From: Neorhizobium galegae bv. orientalis str. HAMBI 540
Lineage (GTDB): Bacteria > Pseudomonadota > Alphaproteobacteria > Rhizobiales > Rhizobiaceae
Assembly (NCBI RefSeq): GCF_000731315.1
Contig: NZ_HG938353.1
Location: 3,906,001 to 3,970,000 of the forward strand
DNA: 64,000 bases
Direction: 5' to 3'
The notes below the pieces were generated by a model, which was not told the DNA's origin, did no database searches, and saw nothing but the letters and a program-made list of their open reading frames with translations. Position 1 is the first letter of the stretch. Each line of letters starts with the position of its first letter. Positions 20,436 to 38,655 of the stretch are shown one piece after another. The position numbers and the translations under genes are program-made.

Positions 20436-20468
20436 AAAACGCGCGGGTGTTGCCACCCGCGCGTTCGA
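20436..20468 (-). terminator. Rho-independent terminator between convergent genes
   Basis: A 12-bp perfect stem (20439-20450 with 20455-20466, 4-nt loop TTGC). Read on the minus strand the stem runs into a T-tract (complement of the A-run at 20435-20440), so it should end the amidohydrolase transcript. It may also stop the plus-strand metallo-hydrolase transcript less efficiently. Confidence 0.85.
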
Positions 20469-20489: not shown

Positions 20490-21503
20490 CTACTTCAGGC
20501 CGAGAAGCTTCTTGGCATTGCCCTCGTAGATCTTTTGGCGGGTAGCGTCGGAGATGTCCATGTTGTCGAGAACCTTGATGGTCTCGCGGATGTACATCGG
20601 GCCGCCTTCCGGATCGAACGGCGCGTCGGACGCGAACAGCACCCGGTCTTCGCCAAAAAATTCGATGGCGTGTTCGATTGCCTTGGTCGAACCGAAGCTC
20701 GCCGTGTCGGCATAAAATTCCTTGAAATATTCGAGATGCGGGCGCTCGAGCGCCTTCAGCACGACCGAGAGGTCGCGGTCGGTCGTGCGTTTGCCCATCT
20801 GGTCCCAGCCGGCACCAACGCGGCCTTCGAAGAAGGGCACCATGCCGCCGGCATGGTGGGTGACGACTTTGAGACCTTTGTACTTGTCGAAGATGCGCGA
20901 GAAGACGAGGCGCGCCATCGCCGCCGAGGTTTCATACGGCCAGCCGAAGGTCCAGAAGATCTCGTATTCCGAACGGTCTTCGGTCAGGTAGTCCGGGAAG
21001 TTGGCGCCACGCGACGGATGCAGGAAAACCGGCTTGCCGGACTTTGCCATATATTCGAAGAATGGCTCGAACTGCGGCAGGTCAAGTGGCTTACCGCTGT
21101 AGTTGGTGAAGATCTGGACCGCACAGGCGCCGAGATCTTCGACGACCCGCTTGGTTTCCGCCATCATCCATTCCTGGTTTTCCATCGGCACGGTGGCGAT
21201 GAAGGCCGGGAAGCGTTCCGGATACTTTTCGCAGAGTTCCGCCTGCGAATCGTTGCCGATCCGACCGAGGTCATAGGCGCGTTCGGGGCCGGCCAGCTTT
21301 TCCAGCGGCGGGGAAGCGAGCGACAGGACCTGCTGATAGTCGCCGCCGAACATGTCCATCACCTGGAAACGACGGTCGAGATCGGTCATCATCGGCACCG
21401 CACCGCTGCGCATGGTGACGTCTGTCATCGTGCCGATATAGCCGATCAGCTTGTCGAAAAACGGCTTCGGCCAGATGTGGTTGAAAGCGTCAATCTTCTT
21501 CAT
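20490..21503 (-). CDS. amidohydrolase-2 family protein (ACMSD-like decarboxylase/hydrolase)
   Basis: A 337-aa TIM-barrel metal enzyme of the amidohydrolase-2 family, which contains aromatic decarboxylases (ACMSD, LigW), lactonases (LigI) and the LigJ hydratase. The usual N-terminal HxH is F7-N-H9 here (DAFNHIWP). VFLHPSRG near 180, VVTHHAGG near 225 and the metal-binding aspartate in FASDAPFD near 295 are present. AGGAGGAGC precedes the start. It lies next to IclR and LysR regulators and a demethylase/gallate-type pathway, so an aromatic acid or ring-cleavage product is a likely substrate. The exact reaction is not determined. Confidence 0.82.
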   Translation of the reverse strand: MKKIDAFNHIWPKPFFDKLIGYIGTMTDVTMRSGAVPMMTDLDRRFQVMDMFGGDYQQVLSLASPPLEKLAGPERAYDLGRIGNDSQAELCEKYPERFPAFIATVPMENQEWMMAETKRVVEDLGACAVQIFTNYSGKPLDLPQFEPFFEYMAKSGKPVFLHPSRGANFPDYLTEDRSEYEIFWTFGWPYETSAAMARLVFSRIFDKYKGLKVVTHHAGGMVPFFEGRVGAGWDQMGKRTTDRDLSVVLKALERPHLEYFKEFYADTASFGSTKAIEHAIEFFGEDRVLFASDAPFDPEGGPMYIRETIKVLDNMDISDATRQKIYEGNAKKLLGLK

Positions 21504-21679
21504 GGAATGCTCCTCCTGTCTATCCCTGCTACGGCACCGCGAACTTAAGGGAAGTTCAGTGCCCCCGAGGGGTTTAAAAAATCCGCGAGCCGAGCAATGT
21601 CGAGATCTCGGCCATGCTCCGTCGCGGCAAAATGCGAAGACGGTCGCCGAAAGTCAACACATTTTCTTGCAATATGAGA

Positions 21680-22459
21680 TTACCGGCTTGAAATTCGATG
21701 TCGATGCGAGGCAAGCGCGGCGGTGATCTCGCCGGCTGCGAACAAGACTTCCCGGCCGATCTCCTCCACAGCGGAGCCGCCGACCTGATCTTGAGCGATC
21801 GTTACGGAAAAGCTGGCGATGGGGCTCTGGCCAGCATCGAAGATCGGTGCCGCGAAACCGACGACACCAGGTGTCACCTCGCCATGAGCCACGGCATAAC
21901 CCTTCTTGCGCACCGACTTCAGCCCGTCCAGAACCGCTTCAACGGTATCGCCGGCGCCCGCTGCCTGCCAGTCGTCGAGCGTGCGATTGATCAGCGGCAC
22001 CAGATTGCGGCGCGGCAGAAAGGCGACGATGGACCGGCCGATCGCGCCGCGGCTGAGCGGCATCGGCCGTCCGCGCGGATAACTGCTGATCGCCTCGCGG
22101 CTGGAACTGATCGAATCGACGCAGAGGATCTTTTCGCCGTACCAGCGCACCAGAAGCGCCGTGCATTCGTATCGACCGGTGAGTTTCTGGAGATAGGGCG
22201 CGCCGGAGAGGATCAGATTGTCCGACTTCCGCAGGAGATAATCCATCTCCACCACCCTTGGTCCAAGGGTGAAGCCGGTATTCGGCATGGAGGTCAGAAA
22301 ACCGCTGTCTTTCAGGATCTTCAGGTAGCGATAGAGCGTCGGCCGGCTATAACCCAGCTCCTCCATCAGCTCTTCCGGCGTCCATTCCAGACGGTCCTCG
22401 GTGAAGACCTCAAGAACTGCTTGAAGGCGTTCGAGACTGTTGACGGCCTTTTTTCTCAA
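21680..22459 (-). CDS. IclR family transcriptional regulator
   Basis: An IclR-type regulator. The winged HTH has its recognition helix in GYSRPTLYRYLKIL, and the effector-binding domain shows the GAIGRSIVAFLP and KKGYAVAHGEVTPGVVGFAAP segments. A TTG start at 22459 (259 aa) is proposed because GGAGAGCGGGAGC sits directly upstream; the first ATG in frame lies at 22546 and would add an implausible Cys/Pro-rich leader. It sits between the LysR gene and the amidohydrolase gene and probably controls the latter. Confidence 0.88.
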   Translation of the reverse strand: MRKKAVNSLERLQAVLEVFTEDRLEWTPEELMEELGYSRPTLYRYLKILKDSGFLTSMPNTGFTLGPRVVEMDYLLRKSDNLILSGAPYLQKLTGRYECTALLVRWYGEKILCVDSISSSREAISSYPRGRPMPLSRGAIGRSIVAFLPRRNLVPLINRTLDDWQAAGAGDTVEAVLDGLKSVRKKGYAVAHGEVTPGVVGFAAPIFDAGQSPIASFSVTIAQDQVGGSAVEEIGREVLFAAGEITAALASHRHRISSR

Positions 22460-22552
22460 GATGCTCCCGCTCTCCGCTGACGGCGCGCAACATCGAGCGG
22501 GCCGGGCATATGCGGATAACGATAACCACGAAAACTGCAATGGCAAGTGGCG

Positions 22553-23803
22553 CTACTCGGCGGCATTCAGCGAAGGCAAACGGCTGCCGTCAGCAGCGCT
22601 GACTGTGTCTTCCGTCGCGACTACCCGCCGGATCGCTGCCAGATATTCCGCCTGGAGAGCGGTCGACTGCCAGTTGCGGCGGGTGGTGATGCCGACCGAC
22701 AACGGCTTTCCCGGCACTTCGTAGTTCAGAAGCGTCAGGAACCCGGCCTTCAATTCGTGCCGGAGCTGATGCCGGGACAGCAGCGCCAACCGATCCGTCT
22801 GCATCAGGATGCCGCGCAACGCCGTCAGCGAGCCGGTCTCGACAGTTCCTTGCGTCTGCGGTCCATCTGGAAACGTTGCCGCCAGGGCATCGAACGTTCT
22901 GCGGTTGGGGGTGCCCTTGCGGGCCACGACCCATGGGTAGGAAGCAAGTTCGGTTGCCGAGACATCCGCCTTGCCGGACAGCGGATGACCGGCACCGGCG
23001 ACAACCGCGAGGCGGAAATCGAAAAGCGGCTCCTGAATCAGCGACGGCGTCAGGCGGCTGCGCAGCGCGCCGATCAGAAAATCGATATGTCCCATCTCCA
23101 GATCGCTGAGGAGCTGTTCGTAGCTGCCTTCGAGGATCTCGAACCGTGCCAGCGGATGGGTGAGGGCCAGCGAAGCAATGGCATCGGGCACGATGGTGGT
23201 ACGCGCCATCGGCAGCGCGCCGATCGATACAAGGCCATCGAACTTACCGCGCAACTCCTGCACTTCCTCGGTGGCGTTGCCGAGTTCCTTTAGCGAAAGG
23301 CCGGCCCAGCGGGCAACGGCACGGCCGGCACTGGTGAACCGCGTCGCCCGGCCGTCGGCCTCGAAAAGGTTTGCACCGAGGATCGCTTCTGCATTGCGCG
23401 CGGTGCGCTGAACCGCAGCACCCGATTGTTCGAGGATGCGCGCGGCACCCGGAAAGCCGCCGGTCTGGGCAAAGGCCTGCAGGGCGCGCAGGTGGGAGAT
23501 CGTCAGCCGCGCGTCCGCACCGGAGCCGCGCGAGCCGGAATCCGCCTGGAGTTTCTGGCAGCCGGTCCGGATAAGATCGAGCGCCCTGAGCGATCGGGTC
23601 TGGACGACGCGCCCCTCGGGCGTCACCATCGCATGCCCGGGACCACGTTCGAGAAGCTTGGTGCCGAAAAGTTCTTCAAGCCGGGAAATCGCCTGCGATG
23701 CCGCTGGCTGGGTCACCCCCACGATATCGGCCGCCTGCGTCAGCGAGCCGGTGCGCAGGCAGGCGCAGAAAAGACGGATATGGCGCAGATTGGGATAGTC
23801 CAC
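22553..23803 (-). CDS. LysR family transcriptional regulator with two tandem HTH domains
   Basis: An unusually long LysR-type protein (about 416 aa against the usual 300). Residues 5-63 form a normal LysR winged HTH (SLTQAADIVGVTQPAASQAI), and residues 102-160 repeat the same fold (FPGAARILEQSGAAVQRT). The periplasmic-binding-like effector domain then occupies about 190-400. A GTG start at 23803 is preferred because GGGGAGG lies 8 bp upstream; a TTG at 23824 is also possible. It lies in the O-demethylation/gallate-type cluster and probably regulates it. Confidence 0.88.
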   Translation of the reverse strand: MDYPNLRHIRLFCACLRTGSLTQAADIVGVTQPAASQAISRLEELFGTKLLERGPGHAMVTPEGRVVQTRSLRALDLIRTGCQKLQADSGSRGSGADARLTISHLRALQAFAQTGGFPGAARILEQSGAAVQRTARNAEAILGANLFEADGRATRFTSAGRAVARWAGLSLKELGNATEEVQELRGKFDGLVSIGALPMARTTIVPDAIASLALTHPLARFEILEGSYEQLLSDLEMGHIDFLIGALRSRLTPSLIQEPLFDFRLAVVAGAGHPLSGKADVSATELASYPWVVARKGTPNRRTFDALAATFPDGPQTQGTVETGSLTALRGILMQTDRLALLSRHQLRHELKAGFLTLLNYEVPGKPLSVGITTRRNWQSTALQAEYLAAIRRVVATEDTVSAADGSRLPSLNAAE

Positions 23804-23884
23804 GTATCTGTCCTCCCCTGCCAATCTCCTCCCGGCAGCGGGTCGAAACGGTGCAAGCCCAGCAGTTGCCCCGTTTCGGTTAAG

Positions 23885-24808
23885 TCACAATGCGATGCTG
23901 CGCTCGCCGGTCAGCTGTTCGTTCATCCATTCCGCGCTGGCGCGGATGCCGCCGAGCGGGAAGACATGGATCTGCTGAAGCAGACTTTCCGGATGGGCGG
24001 TCTTGTAGTTGGCGATGTCAGCCAGCACTTCGGTCGGCTCGTAGGGAACCAGGAGCTTGCTGAGATCCATTGCGCGCTTCTGCAGCACGCCGAGCGAGGG
24101 GCCGACGCCGCATGCGATCGCAAACTTGATAAGCGTCTGCAGTTTGGTGGGGCCGGCAATGCCAAGGTGGATCGGCAGCTTGACGCCGGCGGCGGCAATC
24201 CGCTCGGCCCAGGCGATCACCGGCTTGGCATCGAAGGCGAACTGGGTGGCGATCGCCATCTCCGCATCGGTGCGCTCGGAATAGGCCTGTTTGAACTTCA
24301 ACGCCTCGTCGACGATCCTGTGACCGCCATCCTTGTCGATGTCCTTGTTGCCTTCCGGGTGGCCGGCGACGTGCAGCCGCCTAAAGCCGTAGCGGTCGAA
24401 CAGGCCGGTCTCGATCAGCTGGATGGAACTGTCGAAATCGCCAGCGGGGGTCGATACGCCGCCGCCGAGCAGCAGCGCCTGTTCCACACCCGCCTCGTTT
24501 CTATAGCGCTTGATCCAGTCCTCTAGGATCGCATGGCTTGCAATGATGCGGGAGGGAAAATGCGGCATGACGGGGAAGCCGTCTTCGTGCAGGCGCCTTG
24601 CGGTCTGCACCATGTCCTCGATCGGCGTCCCGTCGATATGGGCGATATAGACCCGCGTGCCCTTCGGCAGCAGTGTCTTGAAATCTTCGATCTTCGCCGC
24701 CGTGCGCGGCATGACTTCGATGGAATAGCCGTCGATAAGGTCCCTGAAGCGGGCCGGCTCCACGGACTTCTCTTCCTGCTTGCTCCTGAACAAATTTAAA
24801 AGTGCCAT
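23885..24808 (-). CDS. metF: methylenetetrahydrofolate reductase family protein
   Basis: A 307-aa MetF-fold flavoprotein. It is expected to interconvert 5-methyl- and 5,10-methylene-tetrahydrofolate in the cytoplasm. The TIM-barrel start (SIEVMPRTAAKIED), the folate-site region (LLLGGGVSTPAGDFDSS) and IATQFAFDAKPVIAWAERI are recognisable. GGGGGAGG precedes the ATG. The neighbouring upstream gene is a LigM-type demethylase, whose product is methyl-tetrahydrofolate, so this enzyme would regenerate the one-carbon carrier. The same ligM-metF association is known in lignin-aromatic degraders. It may not be the housekeeping MetF. Confidence 0.88.
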   Translation of the reverse strand: MALLNLFRSKQEEKSVEPARFRDLIDGYSIEVMPRTAAKIEDFKTLLPKGTRVYIAHIDGTPIEDMVQTARRLHEDGFPVMPHFPSRIIASHAILEDWIKRYRNEAGVEQALLLGGGVSTPAGDFDSSIQLIETGLFDRYGFRRLHVAGHPEGNKDIDKDGGHRIVDEALKFKQAYSERTDAEMAIATQFAFDAKPVIAWAERIAAAGVKLPIHLGIAGPTKLQTLIKFAIACGVGPSLGVLQKRAMDLSKLLVPYEPTEVLADIANYKTAHPESLLQQIHVFPLGGIRASAEWMNEQLTGERSIAL

Positions 24809-24836
24809 TGTTGATCCTCCCCCCGTTTAGCCAATG

Positions 24837-24859
24837 AAAAACGTCCGGTCAGACGGACG
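24837..24859 (-). terminator. terminator/attenuator between ligM-like and metF-like genes
   Basis: On the minus strand a 6-bp stem CGTCCG/CGGACG with a 6-nt loop is followed directly by TTTTT (complement of 24837-24841). It lies 41 bp after the demethylase stop and 28 bp before the MetF start. Partial read-through would lower metF relative to the demethylase. Confidence 0.6.
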
Positions 24860-24863
24860 GAGC

Positions 24864-24894
24864 GGCGTGCGAGAACAATCCGTTCTCGCACGCC
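24864..24894 (-). repeat. 13-bp perfect inverted repeat downstream of the demethylase gene
   Basis: Stem 24864-24876 pairs perfectly with 24882-24894 around a 5-nt loop. It lies just after the demethylase stop and before the terminator at 24837-24859. No T-tract follows it directly, so it probably stabilises the 3' end of the upstream message. Confidence 0.65.
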
Positions 24895-24900
24895 CATCGC

Positions 24901-26382
<1,482 letters not shown>

Positions 26383-26474
26383 TCAAGGGGAAATATTCGG
26401 CAGGCTGACGATCGCCTCCGCGATAGTAAACCGAAGGCTTCCGGCCATCAAAACCTGCGGCAGGCGGTCGGGTC

Positions 26475-27263
26475 TCAGGGGTTGAGGAGCACCAGGCCCG
26501 GAACGGTCAGCATCAGTTCCGGATCCTCGAACACGGCGTATTCGAGGTTCTTGCGGGCAATGCGGGCATGTTCGCGGGCGATAAATTCCGCCCGCGCACC
26601 CTCGCGCCCGGCGATCGCCTGCACCAAAGTACGATGCTGTTCCTGCGCGATATGCAGCGACTGACGGAAGGCCGCCACATGGGCTCGGCCTGACAGGAAA
26701 GCCGATGGCGACGCGAACGGAAGCCGTGTCGCGCGCTCGACCTCCCGCTGGATTACCGTGCTGCCGGAGAGCTCGACCAGCACCACATGAAACCTTGCGT
26801 TCGCCTCAGAATAGGCTTCCAGATCCACCTCGTCGGCGGCTTCGCCGAAACAATCGTCGAGCCGGGCCTGGATTTCCCGAAGCTGATCCAATCCTGCCTG
26901 CGAGACGCCGCGTTCGGCGGCAAGCCGCGCCGCCGTCCCTTCCAGTACGCCGCGCAGTTCGATCGCATCGACGGCATCCGCATAGGTGAAGCTTCGGACT
27001 ACGAAACCGCCATTCGCCAACCGGTCGAGCAATCCCTCTTCCGCAAGACGCGACATCACCTCGCGCACCGGCGTTCGGGAAATCTGCAGCGTCTCGGCCA
27101 GCGAAACTTCGAACAGCCGGGTGCCGCCGGGGTAGTCGCCGCTCAGGATTTTCTTGCGCAGCTCCATCAGCGCGCGCATCGTGTGGGTCGTTCTCGAGGT
27201 CTCTTCCAAATCCGCACCTTTGCCTGAGACAAGCCGGCGCAACCTCCGCCTGTCGGTCCGCAA
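26475..27263 (-). CDS. GntR/FadR-family transcriptional regulator
   Basis: Up to 262 aa. The winged HTH (residues about 27-90, with LQISRTPVREVMSRL as recognition region) is followed by an FCD effector domain with the expected Asp/His metal-binding pattern (FHVVLVEL, AFRQSLHIAQEQH). The true start may be a TTG around residue 18, since the first 17 residues are arginine-rich and no ribosome binding site stands out. It lies between the demethylase gene and the gallate-type operon on the same strand. Two GTATAC sites 60 bp apart upstream suggest autoregulation. Confidence 0.9.
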   Translation of the reverse strand: MRTDRRRLRRLVSGKGADLEETSRTTHTMRALMELRKKILSGDYPGGTRLFEVSLAETLQISRTPVREVMSRLAEEGLLDRLANGGFVVRSFTYADAVDAIELRGVLEGTAARLAAERGVSQAGLDQLREIQARLDDCFGEAADEVDLEAYSEANARFHVVLVELSGSTVIQREVERATRLPFASPSAFLSGRAHVAAFRQSLHIAQEQHRTLVQAIAGREGARAEFIAREHARIARKNLEYAVFEDPELMLTVPGLVLLNP

Positions 27264-27296
27264 ATCTTAGCCACATCTGATGGATTGGCCAAGCCT

Positions 27297-27367
27297 CATG
27301 TATACAGGGGGCAGAGGCTGTGGATGACGATGCGGGTTTGGAGCGCAAATGCATGGCGCGTATACAA
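27297..27367 (-). promoter_or_regulatory. pair of GTATAC operators upstream of the GntR gene
   Basis: TGTATACA at 27299-27306 and GCGTATACAA at 27358-27367, centres 60 bp apart, lie in the 127-bp gap before the GntR gene and after the DUF1932 dehydrogenase stop. The core matches the palindrome ahead of the demethylase gene. The spacing is close to six helical turns, which would suit cooperative binding by two dimers. Confidence 0.6.
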
Positions 27368-27390
27368 GGCAACGCGCTGAAGAGGCGAGC

Positions 27391-28263
27391 TTATTTGCCT
27401 TGACGCCGCGCCGAAAGGACCCGCGCAACGGTTTCCCTGAGATCGCCGGCCGGCTTCACGCCGCTCGCCGCCATCTCGTCCTGGACGGCGGCAATCTCGC
27501 GGGCAAGACCGCCGTTCAGCCCCAGCGCATCGAGCGTAACGCCGCTTTCACGCATCTCGGCGGCCCGGCGGCGGCCGTGGCGGGTCGTTCGCTCAAACTG
27601 GTAATCCGGGAATTTAGACCAGTCGAGGCCTGGAAAGCTCTGGGAGAGCGAAGAGAGAATTTCCTCGAAACAGTCTGACGCCTCAGCTGCGAGTAACGCC
27701 TCGACAGTGATTGCTTCAAGACCTTTCACGAACACAGAGCGCACCATCTTGATGGCCGTTGCCGAGCCGACTGCTTCTCCGGCAACATCGGCGCTGAAGC
27801 CGAGATCGCGAAAACGTTCCAGAAGCTCGGCCGCGTTTTTGCCGGCAATCAGAACCGGCGTTGCATGGCCCTTCGGATGGACCGGGGCCATCACGGCCAT
27901 GTCGAGATAATCGGCGCCGGTCTCGTTGACCAGCGCCGCGGTCTCGCGCTTGCGGCCGGGGGACACGGAATTGATGTCGATCAGCAGCGCGCCCTGGCCG
28001 AGATGCGGCGCGATCGACTGGGCGGCAATGAGGCTCTGGTCGGCGGTGACCGCGCTGAAGATCCATTCGGCATCGGCAAGACCCGCAGGCGACGCTTCCG
28101 GCCTGACGCCACGGCTCGCCATCGCCACCTGCATCTCCCCCGCCTTCTCGGCGTCGTCGAGCAGCAGGTCATAGGCCCGGAATTCGCCATTCTCGAGCTT
28201 CGGCGCCAGGCTGTCATGGAAGGCGCGTGCCGCTTCGCCAAAACCCAGAAATGCGATCCTCAT
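27391..28263 (-). CDS. NAD(P)-dependent oxidoreductase, DUF1932 / 6-phosphogluconate-dehydrogenase-like
   Basis: A 290-aa beta-hydroxyacid-dehydrogenase-like protein. The Rossmann start FLGFGEAARAF (residues 5-15) is followed by a DINSVSPGRKRE segment, the substrate loop MAPVHPKGHATP, the conserved lysine in TAIKMVRSVFVKG near 175, and a helical DUF1932 C-terminal domain. It is the last gene of the unit beginning with the VOC dioxygenase, 15 bp from the tautomerase stop. Its place in the pathway is uncertain; it may handle a hydroxyacid side product or a variant intermediate. Confidence 0.85.
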   Translation of the reverse strand: MRIAFLGFGEAARAFHDSLAPKLENGEFRAYDLLLDDAEKAGEMQVAMASRGVRPEASPAGLADAEWIFSAVTADQSLIAAQSIAPHLGQGALLIDINSVSPGRKRETAALVNETGADYLDMAVMAPVHPKGHATPVLIAGKNAAELLERFRDLGFSADVAGEAVGSATAIKMVRSVFVKGLEAITVEALLAAEASDCFEEILSSLSQSFPGLDWSKFPDYQFERTTRHGRRRAAEMRESGVTLDALGLNGGLAREIAAVQDEMAASGVKPAGDLRETVARVLSARRQGK

Positions 28264-28278
28264 GGTCGTATCCTATTC

Positions 28279-29334
28279 TCAGTCGCCGAAAACCACGCCG
28301 TCGAAAAGCTTGCGCGCCGTGCGCAGCACCGCCGCACGATGGACTTCGCCATCCTTCATGGTGGCGATGACGCTCATCTCGCCGGTCGGATGCTCGATCG
28401 ACAGCAGCTTCTCGTCGCCTTCCGGAATGACGGCCAGTTCCGAAGCCGGGCCTTCCGGCAGAAGGCAGGCGGTCGCAACGCTGACAGCGCCGAGCACGCC
28501 GATCGCGTCATGGCACGTATGCGGGATGAAGGTGCGGGTCGAGATCACCCCGCCCGCCGTCGGTGCAGAGACCATGGTCATCTTCGGCACGGATTTCTTG
28601 GTAACGTCGCCGAGGTTCATCATCGGCCCGGCTTTCAGCCGGATCGCCTCCAGCTTGGCGCGCAGTTCCTGGTTCGCTTCGAGATCCTTCGGGCTCTCGG
28701 TGCCGGTAATGCCGAGCACATCGCCGCGCATGACGACGCAAGGCATGCCGTTGTCGATCAGCGTGCAGGCAATGCCTTCGATCACGTCGACCGCATTTCC
28801 GGTCGGCAGCAGCGCCCCGCAGGAGGAACCCGCCGTATCCGCAAACACGATCGGCACCGGCGCGGAGGTTCCCGGCACGCCGTCGATCCGGGCATCGCCC
28901 TTGTAGGTCACCTCGCCGCCGGGCGTTTCGATCGTCGCGATGGCGATTTGCCCGGTATTTTCCATGAAGATCGAGACTTCGGTCTTTTCGCCCTTGACCG
29001 GCACCAGCCCGCGCTCGATGGCGAAAGGCCCGATGCCGGCGAGGATATTGCCGCAGTTCTGTGCGTCGGTGACGATCGGTTGATCGACAAAGACCTGCAG
29101 GAAGAGATAATCGACATCGACCCCTTCCCGCTCGGATTTCCGAATCACCGCCACCTTGGAGGTCAGCGGATGGGCGCCGCCCATGCCGTCGATCTGGCGG
29201 GGATCGGGCGATCCCATCACCCGCAGCAGGAAATTGTCGCGATCGGCCGGCAGGTCCGAGGCGAGGAAATAGCCGCCCTTGGAGGTGCCGCCCCGCATCC
29301 ACATGCAACGGACGCCGGTTTCAGTTTCACTCAT
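28279..29334 (-). CDS. galD: 4-oxalomesaconate tautomerase (PrpF family)
   Basis: A 351-aa PrpF-type isomerase with the diaminopimelate-epimerase fold. The family opening CMWMRGGTSKGGYF is at residues 10-23, DAQNCGNILAGIGPFAIE at about 100, and a GSSCGALLPTG segment near 170. GalD enzymes interconvert keto and enol forms of 4-oxalomesaconate after gallate ring cleavage. Its position among GalB-like and LigK/GalC-like genes supports that role over the methylcitrate-pathway PrpF role. AGAAGGGAGATCGAG precedes the start. Confidence 0.88.
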   Translation of the reverse strand: MSETETGVRCMWMRGGTSKGGYFLASDLPADRDNFLLRVMGSPDPRQIDGMGGAHPLTSKVAVIRKSEREGVDVDYLFLQVFVDQPIVTDAQNCGNILAGIGPFAIERGLVPVKGEKTEVSIFMENTGQIAIATIETPGGEVTYKGDARIDGVPGTSAPVPIVFADTAGSSCGALLPTGNAVDVIEGIACTLIDNGMPCVVMRGDVLGITGTESPKDLEANQELRAKLEAIRLKAGPMMNLGDVTKKSVPKMTMVSAPTAGGVISTRTFIPHTCHDAIGVLGAVSVATACLLPEGPASELAVIPEGDEKLLSIEHPTGEMSVIATMKDGEVHRAAVLRTARKLFDGVVFGD

Positions 29335-29387
29335 CTCGATCTCCCTTCTTCTCCCCAGCGGGGAAAAGAGAAAACGGCCTCCATCGC

Positions 29388-30059
29388 TCAGATATACTTC
29401 AAGCCTTTTTCGGCGAGCTTGCCGCGCATGTCATAGATATCGAGGCCGAGTTCACCGGCGGCAAGCCGCTTGCGCTTGTCTTCTTCAGCGGCGACACGGG
29501 CTTCCGCCTTCTTGGCAACCGCTTCGGCCTCCTCGCGGACAACCACGCAGACGCCGTCGTCATCGGCAACGATCACGTCGCCGGGCCGAACATAGGCGCC
29601 AGCGCAAACGACCGGAATATTGACCGAGCCGAGTGTCTCCTTGACCGTGCCCTGAGCATAGACGGCCTTCGACCAGACCGGGAATTTCATCTGGGTCAGA
29701 TCGACCACGTCACGCACGCCGGCATCGATGATCAAGCCCCTGCAGCCGCGCGCCTGGGCGGAGGTCGCAAGCAGGTCGCCGAAATAACCGTCTTCGCAGG
29801 GGCTGGTCGGAGCGAGAAGCAGGATGTCGCCGGCCTTCAACTGCTCGATCGCCACATGCAGCATCCAGTTGTCGCCCGGAGGCGCCGAGATGGTGACGGC
29901 GCTCGCCGCAAGGCGCGCACCCGGATAGATCGGCCGCATGTAGCTGGCGAGCAGGCCCTTGCGGCCCTGCGCTTCATGCACCGTGGCGACACCGCAGGCG
30001 GCCAGCCGGTCGATGACCGACTGATCCGCGCGCTCGATATTCTGGACGACGACGACCAT
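29388..30059 (-). CDS. ligK: 4-carboxy-4-hydroxy-2-oxoadipate aldolase / oxaloacetate decarboxylase (RraA family)
   Basis: A 223-aa class II aldolase of the HMG/CHA family (RraA fold). It should split 4-carboxy-4-hydroxy-2-oxoadipate into pyruvate and oxaloacetate. Diagnostic are [19 protein letters not shown] at about residues 98-116, with the arginine and Asp of GVRD after it, and [16 protein letters not shown] at about 160. The start at 30059 is chosen because AGGAGG lies 9 bp upstream. It lies directly after the GalB-like gene. GalC and LigK are equivalent names for this activity. Confidence 0.9.
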
Positions 30060-30075
30060 CAGAGTCCGCCTCCTA

Positions 30076-30804
30076 TCAAAGTTCGTCGACGGTACGCGGG
30101 AAGACCGACTGGAAGCCTTCCGCATGGGTCGACTTGCGTCCGCTGGCCTGGCCGCCGGAATTGCGCATGAAGTGGTTGCCGCGGTTCTCGGCGACGTTCT
30201 TGTAGAAGTGCCAGAGATGTTCCTGACCTTCCATGCACTGGATGGCCGCCCACTTCTTTTCCCAGACGGGAGAGATGTCGAGGAAGACGTCCGGCTTCCA
30301 TTCCATCTGCTCGGTCTGGTGCGGCTCGAACAGGTAGAGCTGCGGCGCCCCAAGAATCTTTTCGCCCGGATTGTGGCCCCAGGCCTGGGCGATCATCCGG
30401 GCCTCGATCGCAACCTGCGTCGCGTACATGTGGTCGGTATTGTAGGGGTCCCACTTGGAATGGGAGAGCATGAATTCCGGCTGCACCTTGCGGATCACGT
30501 CGACCAGCTTGAACTTGGCGTCCTGGTCGACGACCAGCGGATAGTCGCCGAGGTCGAAGAACTGGATGTCGGTGACATCTAGCGCTTTTGCCGCGTTCTC
30601 CGCCTCCTTGCGGCGCTCGGTCTTCACCTTTTCGAGCGTCATGCCCGGGTTCTTCCAGAGCTTGGCGCTTTCGCCGCGCTCGCCATAGGACAGGCAGATG
30701 ACGGTGACGTCGTAGCCCTTTTCCTCGTGAAGCGCGATCGCGCCGCCGCAACGCCAGACGAAATCCGCCGAATGGGCGCTGATGACCAATGCTGTCTTTG
30801 CCAT
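30076..30804 (-). CDS. galB: 4-oxalomesaconate hydratase, PIG-L family (GalB-like)
   Basis: A 242-aa PIG-L/LmbE-fold zinc protein. The metal ligands are H11 and D14 in [10 protein letters not shown] and a distal histidine in DPYNTDHMY near 122. [10 protein letters not shown] and LSYGERGES are characteristic of GalB, which hydrates 4-oxalomesaconate rather than deacetylating sugars. The neighbours (tautomerase, CHA aldolase) fit this exactly. It starts 15 bp after the VOC dioxygenase stop. Confidence 0.9.
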
Positions 30805-30819
30805 GGGATGCCTCTTGAC

Positions 30820-31776
30820 TTACTTGTGTGCCACCGGCGGCGTGCCGTGCGTGTGAAAGGTTTCGATCGTCTTCATCCCCCAGGCCTGGCCCTTCTTGCG
30901 GTCGGCTTCGGTCCAGACGACCGGCTTCCAGTCGGGACGAAGGATCAGTCGCGCACCTGCATTGGCGAGCTCGACGCGGTTGCCTGCAGGCTCCCAGACA
31001 TACAGGAAGAACGTGCCCTGGATCGCATGCTTGTGCGGGCCGGATTCGATGTGAACGCCGTTTTCCAGGAAGATGTCCGCGGCGCGCAGGATGTCCTCGC
31101 GCTGGTCGCAGGCATAGGTGACATGGTGGAAACGGCCATGCGAGCCGGTATGGTCCTCGGAGCAGGCAAGGTCATAGGTCTTGTTGTTGATGGTGAACCA
31201 GCAGCCGCCGAGGCGGCCGTTGTCGAGCTGGATCATTTCGGTGACCCGGCTGCCGAGCGCCGTGGTCATGAATTCACGGATCAGGCTGACATCGGCGGCA
31301 AGCAGGTTGACGTGGTCGAGGCGGCGTGGGCTCGCGCCGCGACCGTGGTAACGCTGGGCGATGTTCTTGAGCGCCGGCTTTTCTTCCGGCGGCGCCACAT
31401 ATTCCCTGGTATCCCAATAGAGCTCGAACAGATGGCCGTCGGGGCTCTTGAACTGATAGGCCCGGCCGTGACCGAGGTCGCCTTCCGTCCAGCCGACGCC
31501 CCAGCCCTTTTCCTCGATTACCTTGACGCGGCGTTCCAGTGCTTCGGCTGACGACGTACGATAGGCGATGTGGCCGACACCGGTGGTATGATGTCTGGTG
31601 AGCTTCAGCGTGTGGAATTCGTAGTCGTCATAGGCGCGCAGGTAGACGCTGTCGCCCTCGCGGCCACTTTCGGTCAACCCGTAGACGCGGGTGAAGAAGT
31701 CGAGCGACTCGTCGAAACGGTCTGAGTAAAGCTCGACGTGGCCGAGATGGGCGACATCATAACAGGGTTCGGTCAT
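30820..31776 (-). CDS. VOC-family extradiol ring-cleavage dioxygenase (catechol 2,3-dioxygenase type)
   Basis: A 318-aa two-domain type I extradiol dioxygenase. The C-terminal module keeps the iron ligands: H155 (LDHVNLL), H217 or H218 (RFHHVTY) and E269 (GNRVEL), with the HKHAIQGTFFLYVWEPAG active-site stretch. It is first in an operon whose next genes degrade 4-oxalomesaconate, so it probably cleaves gallate, 3-O-methylgallate or protocatechuate between or beside the hydroxyls. Known gallate dioxygenases (GalA, DesB) and LigAB are of the unrelated LigB type. AGGAAAAGCC precedes the ATG. The substrate is inference; the family call is firm. Confidence 0.87.
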   Translation of the reverse strand: MTEPCYDVAHLGHVELYSDRFDESLDFFTRVYGLTESGREGDSVYLRAYDDYEFHTLKLTRHHTTGVGHIAYRTSSAEALERRVKVIEEKGWGVGWTEGDLGHGRAYQFKSPDGHLFELYWDTREYVAPPEEKPALKNIAQRYHGRGASPRRLDHVNLLAADVSLIREFMTTALGSRVTEMIQLDNGRLGGCWFTINNKTYDLACSEDHTGSHGRFHHVTYACDQREDILRAADIFLENGVHIESGPHKHAIQGTFFLYVWEPAGNRVELANAGARLILRPDWKPVVWTEADRKKGQAWGMKTIETFHTHGTPPVAHK

Positions 31777-33087: not shown

Positions 33088-33969
33088 CTACGAAAGGGTC
33101 GGGTCGAGCTTGTCGCGCAGCCAGTCGCCGACGATGCTGATCGACAGCGTGGTCAGCATGATCACCACCGAAGGAGCGAGCATGATCCACGGCGCGCGGG
33201 TCAGGTATTCGCGGCCGAAGCCGACCATGTTGCCAAGGCTCGTTTCCGGCGGCTGCACGCCGAGGCCGAGGAAGGAAAGACCGCTTTCCATCAGGATGAT
33301 TTCCGGGAAAGTCAGCGTCATCGAGACGATTAGGGTCGAGGCGACGTTCGGCAGGATGTGATGGAAATAGACGCGCGCCGGCGTCGCGCCGAGCTGCACG
33401 ACGGAGGCCGCATATCCCTGAGAGCTTGCCGAGATCGCCAGGCCGCGGGCGATGCGGGCGTAACGTTCCCAACCGTAGAACCCCATGAGGCAGACGAGCA
33501 GCACCATGGAGGAGCCGAAGAAGGCGAGCACGGCGAGCGACATGATCAGGAACGGCAATGCTGCCTGGAAATCGGCAAGCACCAGCACGAGATGCTCGAC
33601 CGCACCCCGGAACTGGGCTGCCGCGAAGCCCAGCGCCGTGCCGAACACCGCAGATAGGATCGTGGCGCCAAAGGCGATGATCAGCGACACCCGGACCGAC
33701 TGGAGGAGACGTGAAAGCACGTCACGACCGAGTTCGTCGGTGCCGAGCAGGTGCTTGAGAGCGCCCGGATGGGAAAGGCGGCTCGACAGGTCCATGGCGG
33801 TGATGTTGTAGGGGCGGATCTGGTCGGCAAAAATGGCAACCACCACCACGGCCGCCAGCCAGAGAATGCCGATACCGACGGTGAACGGCACGTTGCGACG
33901 CAGGCGCGTGATGAGCGTCGCATACCAGCCCGGCGTCCGCGCGGTTTCCGACAGATTGATCGTAGCCAT
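33088..33969 (-). CDS. peptide/nickel-type ABC transporter permease (DppC family)
   Basis: A 293-aa inner-membrane permease with an N-terminal span (about residues 30-50), the DppC-type LLGTDELGRDVLSRLL segment near 75-90 and the EAA loop YAASVVQLGATPARVYFHHILPN split near 200-220. It is the last gene of a five-gene importer unit on the minus strand (binding protein, two ATPases, two permeases). The peptide-type fold also carries opines, sugars and other small solutes, so the ligand is unknown. Confidence 0.92.
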   Translation of the reverse strand: MATINLSETARTPGWYATLITRLRRNVPFTVGIGILWLAAVVVVAIFADQIRPYNITAMDLSSRLSHPGALKHLLGTDELGRDVLSRLLQSVRVSLIIAFGATILSAVFGTALGFAAAQFRGAVEHLVLVLADFQAALPFLIMSLAVLAFFGSSMVLLVCLMGFYGWERYARIARGLAISASSQGYAASVVQLGATPARVYFHHILPNVASTLIVSMTLTFPEIILMESGLSFLGLGVQPPETSLGNMVGFGREYLTRAPWIMLAPSVVIMLTTLSISIVGDWLRDKLDPTLS

Positions 33970-33981
33970 ATCTCTTTATCC

Positions 33982-34908
33982 TCAATGCGCCGCGTTTGAG
34001 CGAAGGCGGGGGTCGAGCCAGCCGTAGAGCAGGTCGACGACGAGGTTCGAAACCACCATTGCTGCGGCGATGATCAGCAGGATGCACTGGACGACCGCGA
34101 GGTCGCGGTTGCTGACCGAGACGATCAGCAGGCGGCCGATGCCCGGCCACGAGAAGATCGATTCGACCACCACGGCGCCGGCGATCAGCGAGCCGACCAT
34201 GAAGCCGACGATCGTCACGATCGGCACGGCCGCGTTCGGCAGCGCATGGTTCCAGACCACGTCGCCCCATTTCAGGCCCTTGGCGGAAGCGGTGCGGATA
34301 TAGGGCTGACCCATCACCTCGATCATGGCGCTGCGCGAGAAACGGGCGAGGATGCCGATACCGCCGATGCTCATGGTCACCGTCGGCAGAATGCCGTGCA
34401 CCCAGGTGTCCTGACCACCGGATGGCAGCACGCCGAGGATGACCGCGAAGATCAGCACCAGGAGGAGGCCCATCACGAAGGACGGGATCGTGAAGCCGAG
34501 CACCGCAAGCAGGATCACGCCACGATCGGCAAAGCTCTGGCGATGCAGCGCCGCGTAGACGCCCGCCGGAATGCCGAACACCAGCTTGAGAAGCAGCGCC
34601 GGCAGGGTGAGCTGCAGCGTCGCGGGCAGGCGCTGCAGCACCAGATCCAGCGCCGACGCCTTGTCACGCATCGACACGCCGAAATCGCCGGTGAAGATCG
34701 ATTTGATATAGGCGAGGTATTGGATCCAGAGCGGCTGGTCGAGCCCCCAGGAACGACGGAACGCATCGACGGCTTCCTGCGGCACATCCGGGCCGAGCAT
34801 GACCTGCGCCGGGTCTCCCGACATGCGCAGCACGACGAAGGCGAAGGTGACGACGGCAAAGATGGTGATCATTGCCCGTAGCAGTCGGACGGCTATGAAG
34901 CGGATCAT
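33982..34908 (-). CDS. peptide/nickel-type ABC transporter permease (DppB family)
   Basis: A 308-aa permease. The DppB-type N-terminus (VRLLRAMITIFAVVTFAFVVL) and periplasmic loop with GDPAQVMLGPD come first, then six spans and the EAA motif YIRTASAKGLKWGDVVWNHAL near 220-240. It pairs with the DppC-type gene that starts 12 bp after its stop. It forms the membrane channel of the region 5 importer. Confidence 0.93.
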   Translation of the reverse strand: MIRFIAVRLLRAMITIFAVVTFAFVVLRMSGDPAQVMLGPDVPQEAVDAFRRSWGLDQPLWIQYLAYIKSIFTGDFGVSMRDKASALDLVLQRLPATLQLTLPALLLKLVFGIPAGVYAALHRQSFADRGVILLAVLGFTIPSFVMGLLLVLIFAVILGVLPSGGQDTWVHGILPTVTMSIGGIGILARFSRSAMIEVMGQPYIRTASAKGLKWGDVVWNHALPNAAVPIVTIVGFMVGSLIAGAVVVESIFSWPGIGRLLIVSVSNRDLAVVQCILLIIAAAMVVSNLVVDLLYGWLDPRLRSNAAH

Positions 34909-34920
34909 CAGGAACTCCTC

Positions 34921-35904
34921 TCAGGCCGCAATCGAGGCGGCTTCGCCGGCCACGACATGGCAGGCGGCCGTGCGACCATTGCCGATTGGGCGGAGCTGCG
35001 GCACGACAGTGCGACAGACGTCCTGCGCCAGCGCGCAACGGGGGTGGAAGGCGCAACCGAGCGGGCGATTGGCCGGATTCGGCGGCTCGCCCTGAAGGAT
35101 GACGCGTCCCTGGAGGATCTTGCCCGGCACCGGCACGCTGGAGACCAGCGCCTTGGTATAGGGATGCTGCGGCGAGTGAAAAATCACGTCGGACGAGGCT
35201 TCCTCGACGATCCGGCCGAGATACATCACCGCCACCCGGTCGGCGATATTGCGCACCACCTTGAGGTCATGGCTGATGAACACCATGGCGACGCCGTTCT
35301 GCTCCTGCAGATCGCGCAGCATGTTGACGACCTGTGCCTGGATGGAGACGTCGAGCGCGGAAACCGGCTCGTCGCAGACCAGAAGCTTGGGACGTGCGGC
35401 AAGCGCGCGGGCGATCACCGCGCGCTGCCGCTGGCCGCCCGACAGTTCGTGAGGGTAGCGCCCGGCCTGATCCGGACGCAGACCGACGGCCGTCATCAAC
35501 TCGGCAACGCGGGCTTCCTGGTGCTGCTTCGGAATGAGCCTGTGGATGTCCAGCGGCTCGCCTATCTGTTTTGCGATCGTCACGCGTCGGTCGAGCGCTG
35601 CCAGCGGATCCTGATAGACGAACTGCATCTTGGCCCGCAGCGCGCGCCATTCCGGCGTCTTCAGGTGCGGCATCGGCTTGCCTTCGAACCGCACTTCTCC
35701 GCCCTGTGCGGCGTCGATGCCGAGCAGCATTCGGCCGAGCGTCGATTTGCCGGACCCCGACTCGCCGACGATCCCAAGCGTCTCGCCAGGCTTCAGCGCC
35801 AGCGAAATGCCGTCCACGGCACGCACCGGATGCGGCTGTGCGAACAGGCCGCGACGGATCTGATAGACGCGAACGAGATTGTCCGCTTCGACAAGGGCGG
35901 TCAT
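34921..35904 (-). CDS. peptide-type ABC transporter ATP-binding protein (DppF-like)
   Basis: A 327-aa ATPase. Walker A GESGSGKST is at about residues 48-56, the signature LSGGQRQRAVIARAL near 155, and Walker B LLVCDEPVSALDV near 175. The C-terminal oligopeptide-ABC extension carries the cysteine-containing GCAFHPRC. Its start overlaps the stop of the companion ATPase by 4 bp. Two different ATPases are normal for this family. Confidence 0.94.
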   Translation of the reverse strand: MTALVEADNLVRVYQIRRGLFAQPHPVRAVDGISLALKPGETLGIVGESGSGKSTLGRMLLGIDAAQGGEVRFEGKPMPHLKTPEWRALRAKMQFVYQDPLAALDRRVTIAKQIGEPLDIHRLIPKQHQEARVAELMTAVGLRPDQAGRYPHELSGGQRQRAVIARALAARPKLLVCDEPVSALDVSIQAQVVNMLRDLQEQNGVAMVFISHDLKVVRNIADRVAVMYLGRIVEEASSDVIFHSPQHPYTKALVSSVPVPGKILQGRVILQGEPPNPANRPLGCAFHPRCALAQDVCRTVVPQLRPIGNGRTAACHVVAGEAASIAA

Positions 35905-36914
35905 TGCAGCATGTCCTCGGTCATTCTGGTTCTTGTCTCGACAGGCTCATTGGCCGGAACCGGCCGGAAGCAGGCGAGCTGCCGGCCGTCGGCCGACGTT
36001 TCGAGCGAAGGGCGCTCGCTCCGACAGGCCTCGACCGCGCGAAAACAGCGCGGCGAAAACGAACAGCCTTCGGGCAGATGTTTCGGGTTCGGAACCGTAC
36101 CGGGGATCGGGATCAGCCGCTGGCGGGGACCGTCGATCCGCGGGATCGCGTCGAAAAGACCGCGTGTATAAGGATGACGCGGCTCGGAGAAAAGCTGAGC
36201 GACGCTGCCTTCCTCGACGATCCGGCCGGCATACATGACGCAGACGCGCTCACAGACCTGGGAAACGGCACCGAGATCGTGGCTGATGAACACCGTCGCC
36301 ATGCCGGTCTCGGCCCGGAGCTGGATCAGCAGGTCGAGGATCTGCGCCTGGATCGTCGCGTCGAGCGCGGTGGTCGGCTCGTCTGCAATCAAGAGGTCCG
36401 GCTCGCCGGCAAGCGCCATGGCGATCATCAGCCGCTGACACTGACCGCCCGAGAATTCGTGGGGATAGAGATCGAAACGGCGGCGGGCATCGGGAATGCC
36501 GACCATGTCCAGCAGCCGCAGCGCCTCTCTTTTGGCCGCATCGCCCCGGAGGCCACGATGCAACGACAGAGCCTCGACGATCTGGCGGCCGATCCTGAGC
36601 ACCGGATTGAGCGAGCTCGACGGGTCCTGGAAGATCATCGCGATCCGGCCGCCGCGCACCCGCTCGAAAACCTCACGGGGACCGCCGGCGAGTTCCTGCC
36701 CATCAAGCTGAACGGAACCGCTGACACTCGCCTTGCCGGGAAGCAGTCCCAGAGCCGCGAGCCACGTCACCGATTTTCCGCATCCCGATTCTCCGACGAG
36801 ACCGACTGCTTCGCCCCGGCCCACATTGAGATCGATGCCGTGCAGAACCTGGACGCCGTCAAAGGCGACCTTCAGGTCACGCAGCTCCACCAGATTGGAC
36901 GATGCTCTATCCAT
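35901..36914 (-). CDS. peptide-type ABC transporter ATP-binding protein (DppD-like)
   Basis: About 337 aa. Walker A GESGCGKS, signature [16 protein letters not shown], Walker [14 protein letters not shown] and the C-terminal GCSFSPRC cysteine extension are all present. The ATG at 36914 is favoured over one 45 bp upstream because AGGAG and GCGGGAT precede it, whereas the upstream ATG has no ribosome binding site. It follows the binding-protein gene by about 110 bp and overlaps the second ATPase by 4 bp. Confidence 0.92.
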
Positions 36915-37023
36915 ATCCCGCCATACTCCTGCCTTCCGCCGTTTCCGGACCGAAGACATTACCGTTTTGAAAACAGATGCTCCGGCGGCCGCATGGTCGC
37001 CGGAGCAGAGGAGAACAATCCGA

Positions 37024-38655
37024 TCAGATCGCCCAGTTGGAGGAGCGGAAGTCCATCGCGAAGGCCGGAGCGGCCTTCCATTTAAGCGACGACTTCATGC
37101 CCGTGAACACGGCGTTCTGGTGCAGGACCTGGTAGACGGGGTCTTCGCGCTCGCAGATTTCCAGCATGCGGGCGAAAGCCTTCTTGCGGGCAGCCGCGTC
37201 GGTGCTGGTTTCCAGGATCGACGCCATCTGGTTGGCTTCCGCATTGGTCCAGTCCTTCTTCTGCTGCACCTCGCCGTTCGGACCGAACTGAGCGACGATC
37301 GAGGAGACCGGATCACTGAAGGCGGCCGAGGCCGACCAGTCGCGAACACCCTTGACGCCAGCCGGATCGTGGATCTGGCCCCAGTTTTCCTTCATTTCGA
37401 TCTGAACGTTGAGGCCGACCTGCTTCCACATCTCAACCATGATCTGACCGTTCGAGGTCTGGTTGGTGTAGTAGTTGTTGAGAAGGCGGAACGGGATCAC
37501 GTCGCCCTTGTAACCGGCCTGCTTGATCAGGTCCTGGGCAAGCTTGGCGTTGAACTCCGGAACCTTCCAGCCTTCGACGAACATCGGGCCGTAGAACGGG
37601 AATTGCAAACCAGCCGGGATCTTGGTCTGGCCGGCCCACAGCGCTTCGACGATCGCCTGGCGGTCGATCGAATGCGTCATGGCGCGGCGCATCAGCGGGT
37701 TGGCAAGGATCGGGTTCCGAGTGTTGAAGACCGAGATGCGGTGGTTGTTGATCGTCGATCCCTGAACCTCAAAGCCCTTGGCAGCCTTGACGGTCGCGAT
37801 CTGGTCCGGCGGCAGGTCGCAGGCGAAGTCGTATTCGCCGGAAAGCAGGCCGTTGACGCGGGAAGCGACTTCCGGAACTTCCACGAAGCGGATCTGGGCG
37901 AGCGGCGGACGGCCACCCCAGTATTCGTCGAAGGCGACGAGCGTCAGCGAAACGTCCGGCTTGTATTCGCCGACCATGTAGGCACCGGTCGTAACAGGCT
38001 TGCGGGCCCAATCAACGTAGGTCTTGGCTTCGTCCCAGGCGCGGCGATTGGCGATCTGGCTGCCGAAGGCGTAGAGGCGGCCTTCGAGCGTGACATCCGG
38101 CGTCGCGTTGTGGAAACGGACGGTGTATTTGTCGACGGCTTCGACGCCGGCGAGTGCCGGCCACAGGCGGCGGCCGATGCCCGGGATGGCGGCCGGCAAT
38201 TCCTTGGCGGTCACCGGCTTATTGTCGTCGGCGAAGATGGTCTTGCCGCCGGCAGGCTGGGTGGTGCCGAACAGGCGCTGGGCGGAGAAGCTGAAGACGA
38301 CGTCTTCTGCGGTCAGTTCGTCGCCGTTGTGGAACTTGACGCCCTTGCGGAGCTTCAGTTCGAGCGTCTTGTCGTCGATGCGCTTCCATTCGGTTGCGAG
38401 ACCCGGAAGCGGCCCCTGGTTGCCCATCCAGTCACGCAGGATGAGGCCTTCCCAGAGGTTCGGGAAGAAAACGCGCTCGCCAACGTTCGACTGTTCGTTC
38501 CAGATGTCGAGCGTGTTGTTGTTGGTGATCTTCTGAACGGCGATCGTGATCGACGGGCGTTTGGCGCCCTGGGCGAACGAGAAGCGTGGCAGGATCAGCG
38601 AACCGGCAGCGGCGCCAGCAAGGCCGAGCGTGCTGCGGCGGGTGAAGTTGACCAT
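37024..38655 (-). CDS. ABC transporter substrate-binding protein, family 5 (peptide/nickel type)
   Basis: A 543-aa periplasmic binding protein (SBP_bac_5 fold). A twin-arginine signal (TRRSTLGLAGAAAG, about residues 4-18) ends near 30 at FA-Q. Conserved family stretches such as TLELKLRKGVKFHNGDELTAED and MRRAMTHSIDRQAIVE are recognisable. It is the first gene of the importer operon and so probably the most expressed. The ligand is not evident. Confidence 0.94.
   Translation of the reverse strand: MVNFTRRSTLGLAGAAAGSLILPRFSFAQGAKRPSITIAVQKITNNNTLDIWNEQSNVGERVFFPNLWEGLILRDWMGNQGPLPGLATEWKRIDDKTLELKLRKGVKFHNGDELTAEDVVFSFSAQRLFGTTQPAGGKTIFADDNKPVTAKELPAAIPGIGRRLWPALAGVEAVDKYTVRFHNATPDVTLEGRLYAFGSQIANRRAWDEAKTYVDWARKPVTTGAYMVGEYKPDVSLTLVAFDEYWGGRPPLAQIRFVEVPEVASRVNGLLSGEYDFACDLPPDQIATVKAAKGFEVQGSTINNHRISVFNTRNPILANPLMRRAMTHSIDRQAIVEALWAGQTKIPAGLQFPFYGPMFVEGWKVPEFNAKLAQDLIKQAGYKGDVIPFRLLNNYYTNQTSNGQIMVEMWKQVGLNVQIEMKENWGQIHDPAGVKGVRDWSASAAFSDPVSSIVAQFGPNGEVQQKKDWTNAEANQMASILETSTDAAARKKAFARMLEICEREDPVYQVLHQNAVFTGMKSSLKWKAAPAFAMDFRSSNWAI

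Follow-up and report, generated by a model that had tools for sequence, protein, structure and literature searches.

Which enzyme opens the aromatic ring in the gal gene cluster of Neorhizobium galegae bv. orientalis HAMBI 540? The window analyzed here, a stretch of 64,000 nt (C1:3906001-3970000 in a genome of 6.46 Mb), carries a complete gal lower pathway, with GalB, GalC, and GalD homologues together, and next to them a gene for a VOC-fold extradiol dioxygenase (the VOC protein, or VOC). Gallic acid is a breakdown product of tannin and lignin, and GalD, GalB, and GalC convert 4-oxalomesaconate (OMA) to pyruvate and oxaloacetate. The locus shares the proposed reaction from gallate to OMA, and close homologues of GalB, GalC, and GalD/LigU, with the systems of GalA (Pseudomonas putida) and DesB (Sphingobium SYK-6); GalA and DesB, however, belong to the LigB or type II superfamily, whereas the window protein is a VOC or type I enzyme of unrelated fold. 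We propose that the VOC protein is probably an Fe(II)-dependent type I gallate dioxygenase, which would do the job of the unrelated LigB-type GalA/DesB in converting gallate to OMA. The pathway is known and the fold is known; the pairing is new, and it comes with a distinctive active-site change. No VOC-type gallate dioxygenase was found in the literature searched on the enzyme and its genes, which consisted of partial listings with subscription journals mostly outside.

Eleven genes run from 31776 to 20490 on the minus strand, followed by a possible terminator:

30820..31776, minus strand: VOC-fold (type I) extradiol dioxygenase, candidate gallate dioxygenase; Fe ligands H155, H218, and E269; Tyr201 at the position of His200 of homoprotocatechuate 2,3-dioxygenase (HPCD)
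30076..30804, minus strand: GalB, 4-oxalomesaconate hydratase (PIG-L family); 326 bits to 5cgz (named 4-oxalmesaconate hydratase)
29388..30059, minus strand: GalC/LigK, 4-carboxy-4-hydroxy-2-oxoadipate aldolase (RraA-like); 304 bits to aldolase 3noj
28279..29334, minus strand: GalD/LigU, 4-oxalomesaconate tautomerase (PrpF family); NF033377 at 524.7 bits (cut-off 440), 541 bits to oxalomesaconate isomerase 6p3j
27391..28263, minus strand: DUF1932/NAD-binding protein (domain scan); conserved partner, in 41/80 VOC loci
26475..27263, minus strand: GntR (FCD) regulator (domain scan)
24901..26370, minus strand: LigM, tetrahydrofolate-dependent vanillate/3-O-methylgallate O-demethylase; NF047885 at 697.3 bits (cut-off 580), 611 bits to 5tl4
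23885..24808, minus strand: MetF-like methylenetetrahydrofolate reductase, with methyl-group recycling as its expected role; 160 bits to 7xg9
22553..23824, minus strand: LysR regulator with two HTH_1 domains (domain scan)
21680..22546, minus strand: IclR regulator (domain scan)
20490..21503, minus strand: Amidohydrolase_2 protein (domain scan), in the syntenic block of Neorhizobium-like relatives
20437..20466, minus strand: terminator-like hairpin 3' of the last gene, from a scan that is overall near chance (12 found, 10.4 expected)

The order VOC, GalB, GalC/LigK, GalD, and then LigM and the MetF-like gene had been put forward in an earlier note on this DNA and is confirmed, all on the minus strand. 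Within the unit 31776-27391 delimited there, the named genes stand, and the gene left unnamed at 28263-27391 encodes the DUF1932/NAD-binding protein. The intergenic gaps from VOC to DUF1932 are 15, 16, 53, and 15 bases, so that these genes look like one operon; the later gaps after DUF1932 measure 127, 104, 92, 60, 6, and 176 bases. For GalC the best start is the ATG at 30059, preceded by TAGGAGG. A promoter scan of the window gave about the shuffled expectation (3 vs. 2.6), as did the terminator scan. The GalD of the window is the sole GalD match in the genome, which encodes two further LigM/DesA-like proteins; none of the three LigM/DesA-like proteins reaches the DesA cut-off. The MetF-like protein has its match in 7xg9, a SYK-6 protein. 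LigM and a MetF-like enzyme are common to the window and the vanillate/syringate route of SYK-6, but ring opening in SYK-6 is by type II enzymes, to which DesB, LigAB, and DesZ all belong (PMC3962378).

The iron ligands of the VOC protein, given as H155, H217/218, and E269 in the earlier note, are indeed intact: H155, H218 (preceded by H217), and E269 are identical in 81/81 aligned sequences, i.e., the window protein and 80 relatives. The domain scan detected glyoxalase-type domains only and no PF02900 match, and the best fold matches of the predicted model (pLDDT 82.6) are the type I dioxygenases AphC (Rhodococcus RHA1), LapB, and XylE, which share ~38% identity with the VOC protein and have His where the VOC clade has Tyr201. 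The closest solved chain, 9wgj, is absent among the fold matches listed; it is 52% identical to the VOC protein, with Tyr at the same position and the same ligands. It was deposited as ‘Catechol 1,2-dioxygenase', an intradiol activity name that may be only an annotation, and no paper naming 9wgj was found in the literature search. The VOC proteins of Neorhizobium galegae, N. vignae, and N. alkalisoli share 98-99% identity with the one in the window. Relatives are named ‘VOC family protein', ‘catechol 2,3-dioxygenase', or ‘manganese-dependent 2,3-dihydroxybiphenyl 1,2-dioxygenase' in the databases, and no name mentions gallate among 120 of 7669 proteins plus 40 of 80 records. A phylum-wide sample yielded a VOC match at 1e-40 in 14/299 genomes and few His-type relatives.

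We then compared the surroundings of VOC genes in 80 loci (the best 80 of 199 confirmed; flanks of at most 10 kb, some contigs being shorter). Near VOC we found GalC in 57 loci, GalB in 55, GalD in 54, DUF1932 in 41, LigM in 30, and the MetF-like gene in 19; the direct same-strand neighbor within 250 bases is GalB in 37/80 and GalC in 21/80. LigM, MetF-like, and PurU (formyl-tetrahydrofolate deformylase) genes stand beside VOC in varying combinations in L140, L025, L047, L075, and L077, and the order in L140 (LigM, TRAP genes, VOC, PurU, MetF-like) ties VOC to O-demethylation too. An aromatic-acid symporter gene, recognized by its MFS match, occurs in 7/80 loci and directly adjoins VOC in 5. 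A protein of 282 residues near VOC or GalC (L131:9112-9960, L117:269-1117) weakly resembles periplasmic binding proteins (NMT1/phosphonate-binding); it was seen in one family of the order and in Roseomonas.

The neighborhoods in more distant relatives also bear on the substrate. On plasmid pAt of Agrobacterium tumefaciens 186 (walnut) the order is PIG-L (GalB), VOC, GalC, GalD, and tannase (PF07519, 438 bits), while an A. vitis plasmid carries GalB, VOC, GalC, and GalD followed by a carboxylesterase. These gallate-type clusters with tannase or carboxylesterase (L114, L115) lie on Agrobacterium plasmids typed conjugative, from walnut and grapevine, a location suggestive of a transferable adaptation to tannin-rich plants. 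In Pantoea piersonii, genes for a LysR regulator and an aromatic acid/H+ symporter lie with VOC opposite GalD-GalC-GalB, an arrangement that resembles the P. putida gal cluster with VOC replacing GalA. In Thermus oshimai, VOC has GalB and GalC in its vicinity; in Nonomuraea, GalD is nearby as well. Tannase releases gallate, and gallate is thus the common denominator of tannase, LigM, and GalB-GalC-GalD; judged by the gene context, gallate is a likelier substrate than protocatechuate or 3-O-methylgallate. In T. oshimai, a DUF6282 protein (L116:10597-11517) is encoded between VOC-GntR and GalB-GalC.

The active site provides a second line of evidence. His200 is the acid-base residue of HPCD: it accepts the catechol proton and hands it to oxygen, and the rate is vanishingly small without it (PMC10760822). 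The VOC protein has Tyr201 at this position, identical in at least 78 of the 81 aligned sequences. Since His200 is essential for the rate in HPCD and absent here, the chemistry of Tyr-type VOC proteins must differ; Tyr201 presumably takes part in catalysis, and it may be favorable for a substrate that carries a third hydroxyl in this vicinity. Tyr is present at position 201 in 41/41 distinct proteins of 52-100% identity and His in 8/8 of 28-47%, with the three ligands kept in all. In a phylogeny of the VOC protein, all 58 Tyr rows among 66 fall on one side of a branch with support of 98/96 (the rows are this 49-protein Tyr/His set and 17 VOC proteins from the 80 loci, with a duplicate Nonomuraea row dropped; the alignment retained the Tyr/His column, and the His rows are on long branches). 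Six His-type proteins have a known neighborhood: four are among classical meta-pathway genes (L122 of T. thermophilus, L124, L132, and L133) and two in other settings (L123, L125). The two types can be compared within the genus Thermus, where T. oshimai has Tyr and GalB-GalC whereas T. thermophilus has His and a dmpG operon. A single genome (G148) even holds both, a Tyr-type protein with GalB-GalC-GalD (L134) and a His-type protein with semialdehyde dehydrogenase-like and pentenoate hydratase-like genes (L133).

If the VOC protein can stand in for a LigB-type enzyme, gal clusters with VOC should be found in genomes lacking the latter. The genomes of 50 of the 80 VOC loci were searched for PF02900; most are drafts, and absence is firm only for the complete ones. 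No PF02900 match was found in 18/50. In 42 genomes the VOC locus contains two or more gal genes; 14 of them are free of PF02900 matches, 20 have only weaker ones, and 8 have one of at least 170 bits. Several of the weaker proteins have starts resembling those of DODA or YgiD proteins. The 14 include Rhizobium johnstonii 3841 (complete sequence, chromosome of 5.06 Mb). In N. alkalisoli (L010), whose genome has no PF02900 match, VOC is retained together with the gal genes, LigM, and the MetF-like gene.

Co-occurrence was then examined in 199 genomes of the order, our genome included, taking at least 170 bits as the LigB class (G018 counts here with a protein that reaches only 12 bits against the LigB of our genome). 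VOC was detected in 27 genomes, GalD in 55, and LigB in 26. GalD accompanies VOC in 22 of the 27 VOC genomes (odds ratio 18.5, p 4e-10), and in 14 of these 22 the two genes are on the same contig, at most ~7 kb apart; LigB and GalD occur together in 19 genomes (odds ratio 10.3, p 2.6e-7). The 55 GalD genomes split into 14 with VOC only, 11 with LigB only, 8 with both, and 22 with neither. The best-scoring GalD (562.7 bits) is in a genome with neither VOC nor LigB; an example of this class is G211:C67:14034-15074.

Several observations weigh against the proposed function. The genome of HAMBI 540 itself has a LigAB pair: its sole PF02900 match lies at C1:98684-99475, with a LigA-domain open reading frame just upstream. 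The pair forms part of a module (L002:6544-11837, C1 ~94.5-99.8 kb) of LigA, LigB, alpha/beta hydrolase, RraA-like, DHDPS-like, and YciI-like genes. Homologues of that LigA, LigB, hydrolase, RraA, and DHDPS are contained in the VOC-gal-LigM cluster L017, and in L017, L027, L117, and L139 the VOC-gal cluster also includes a LigB-type gene, each time with an alpha/beta hydrolase. VOC and LigB co-occur above expectation in the sample of the order (9 genomes, odds ratio 4.6, p 0.003), and a strict mutual exclusion is rejected; together with the 22/55 GalD genomes that have neither VOC nor LigB of at least 170 bits, this means that replacement is not a clean either-or. Those 22 genomes might cleave the ring with a different enzyme or employ GalD for something else. 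GalD is without a match in 5/27 VOC genomes: near VOC, G221 has GalB and GalC, G244 has GalC, G085 and G193 have none of these, and in G238 the VOC matches carry a stop codon. About one third of the 80 loci have no gal genes near VOC. Finally, the VOC protein lacks the His at the position of His200, which is described as essential for the rate of HPCD (PMC10760822).

Two statements of the earlier note have to be narrowed in consequence. The absence of a LigB-type enzyme holds for the window and not for the genome, where the genome search found LigAB. The VOC protein was also said to be the only ring-cleavage candidate, which fails genome-wide because of the LigAB pair and a PcaGH-like pair (two adjacent PF00775 matches) at C2:61.3-62.4 kb. 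The view that VOC is a non-homologous replacement of a LigB-type enzyme is supported by synteny, the 14 LigB-less VOC-gal genomes, the tannase cluster, and the clade-specific Tyr.

Could the LigAB pair at C1:98.6 kb open gallate or 3-O-methylgallate and feed GalB-GalC-GalD, leaving another catechol to the VOC protein? Its LigB scores 288 bits to SYK-6 LigB and 235 bits to gallate dioxygenase 3wku, and the LigB homologues inside L017 and L027, like the LigB-type genes in L117 and L139, speak for such a role. The pair is, however, 3.8 Mb from the only GalD, and N. alkalisoli, without PF02900, retains the VOC-GalB-GalC-GalD-LigM block, as the 14 LigB-less genomes retain VOC and gal genes; we regard this explanation as quite improbable. 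A division of labor is possible, in which LigAB and the hydrolase would serve 3-O-methylgallate via its methyl ester and VOC would serve gallate, both ending at OMA. Even less probability attaches to the idea that the VOC protein is an ordinary catechol 2,3-dioxygenase that stands beside the gal genes by chance. The best curated family (TIGR03211, catechol 2,3-dioxygenase), the best folds, and the database names of relatives are all in its favor, yet the TIGR03211 score of 309.4 bits is below the cut-off of 320.2, Tyr replaces the catalytic His throughout the clade, and none of the four classical meta-pathway gene kinds tested (dmpG, acetaldehyde dehydrogenase, FAH, and pentenoate hydratase) has a match of at least 100 bits near VOC in the 80 loci. 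Aldehyde dehydrogenase reaches 100 bits in 14/80.

Another explanation, in our estimate unlikely, is that the VOC protein mainly cleaves 3-O-methylgallate or protocatechuate and that the product reaches OMA via the methyl ester or 2-pyrone-4,6-dicarboxylate (PDC). LigM also converts vanillate to protocatechuate, and LigI-like PDC hydrolase genes are present in 6/80 VOC loci (351 bits to LigI 4d8l) and in further stretches fetched. The window has no LigI-like match, however, and the nearest one in the genome is at C1:4525695 (47% identity). The tannase-containing cluster indicates gallate. Moreover, PF00775 proteins are encoded in 13/14 of the LigB-less VOC-gal genomes, so protocatechuate can be opened there by PcaGH-like enzymes; G026 (L048) is without PF02900 and without PF00775. 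A protocatechuate 4,5-pathway is weakened by the lack of a LigI-like gene in the window and by the PcaGH-like pair elsewhere; LigC was not searched for.

We return to gallate cleavage by the VOC protein as the preferred explanation. The gene identities, their order and conservation, the lack of the LigB superfamily in other VOC-gal genomes, and the clade-marking His-to-Tyr change were computed here, and from them we infer the substrate and the product of the enzyme. LigM would transfer the methyl group of 3-O-methylgallate to tetrahydrofolate, yielding gallate, and the MetF-like enzyme would recycle the methyl group; in relatives gallate would be supplied by tannase or by transport. Gallate (3,4,5-trihydroxybenzoate) is predicted to bind the Fe(II) of VOC via two neighboring hydroxyls, and the ring would open on the side of the third hydroxyl. 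Both new ends would then be carboxylates, so that OMA would form directly and the LigC and LigI reactions of the protocatechuate route would be bypassed. GalD would tautomerize OMA, GalB would hydrate it to 4-carboxy-4-hydroxy-2-oxoadipate, and GalC would split the latter into pyruvate and oxaloacetate. In sphingomonads, gallate cleavage gives OMA and 3-O-methylgallate can pass via gallate or the methyl ester, as described in PMC8091115.

A broader hypothesis, for and against which we see about equal grounds, is that VOC-fold gallate dioxygenases form a family of their own, present in Alphaproteobacteria, Enterobacterales, Deinococcota, and Actinomycetota, whose origin was independent of GalA/DesB. 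The His200-to-Tyr swap would allow a pyrogallol-type acid to be cleaved between two of its hydroxylated carbons, with the dicarboxylate OMA and not a semialdehyde as the product, and many ‘catechol 2,3-dioxygenase' or ‘VOC family protein' entries of the clade would be misnamed. If this is true, gallate ring cleavage has at least two evolutionary origins, on unrelated folds, and many Rhizobiales, Rhodobacterales, and Pantoea/Erwinia degrade tannin and syringyl lignin unnoticed by LigB-only searches. A simple marker, Tyr in the place of His200, would then serve to rename the family, which would offer a new enzyme for lignin/tannin conversion and a natural experiment on the influence of a second-sphere residue on extradiol chemistry.

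Some features at the borders of the cluster deserve mention. The amidohydrolase at 20490-21503 was considered as LigI or LigJ and rejected: its best solved match is 3ij6 (an uncharacterized hydrolase), followed by aromatic decarboxylases, LigJ (4-oxalomesaconate hydratase) comes at ~2e-7, and LigI (4d8l) is not among the matches listed. Its nearest solved relatives include 5-carboxyvanillate and gamma-resorcylate decarboxylases. The double HTH_1 of the LysR regulator beside the gal genes (22553-23824) recurs in 4/4 partners scanned (L114:2122-3408, L115:2186-3388, L119:6101-7330, and L120:5994-7169). Upstream of VOC on the same strand, oligopeptide-type ABC transporter genes occupy 33088-36959 and are retained in ~10 Neorhizobium-like loci; an open reading frame of 543 residues lies behind them at 37024-38655.

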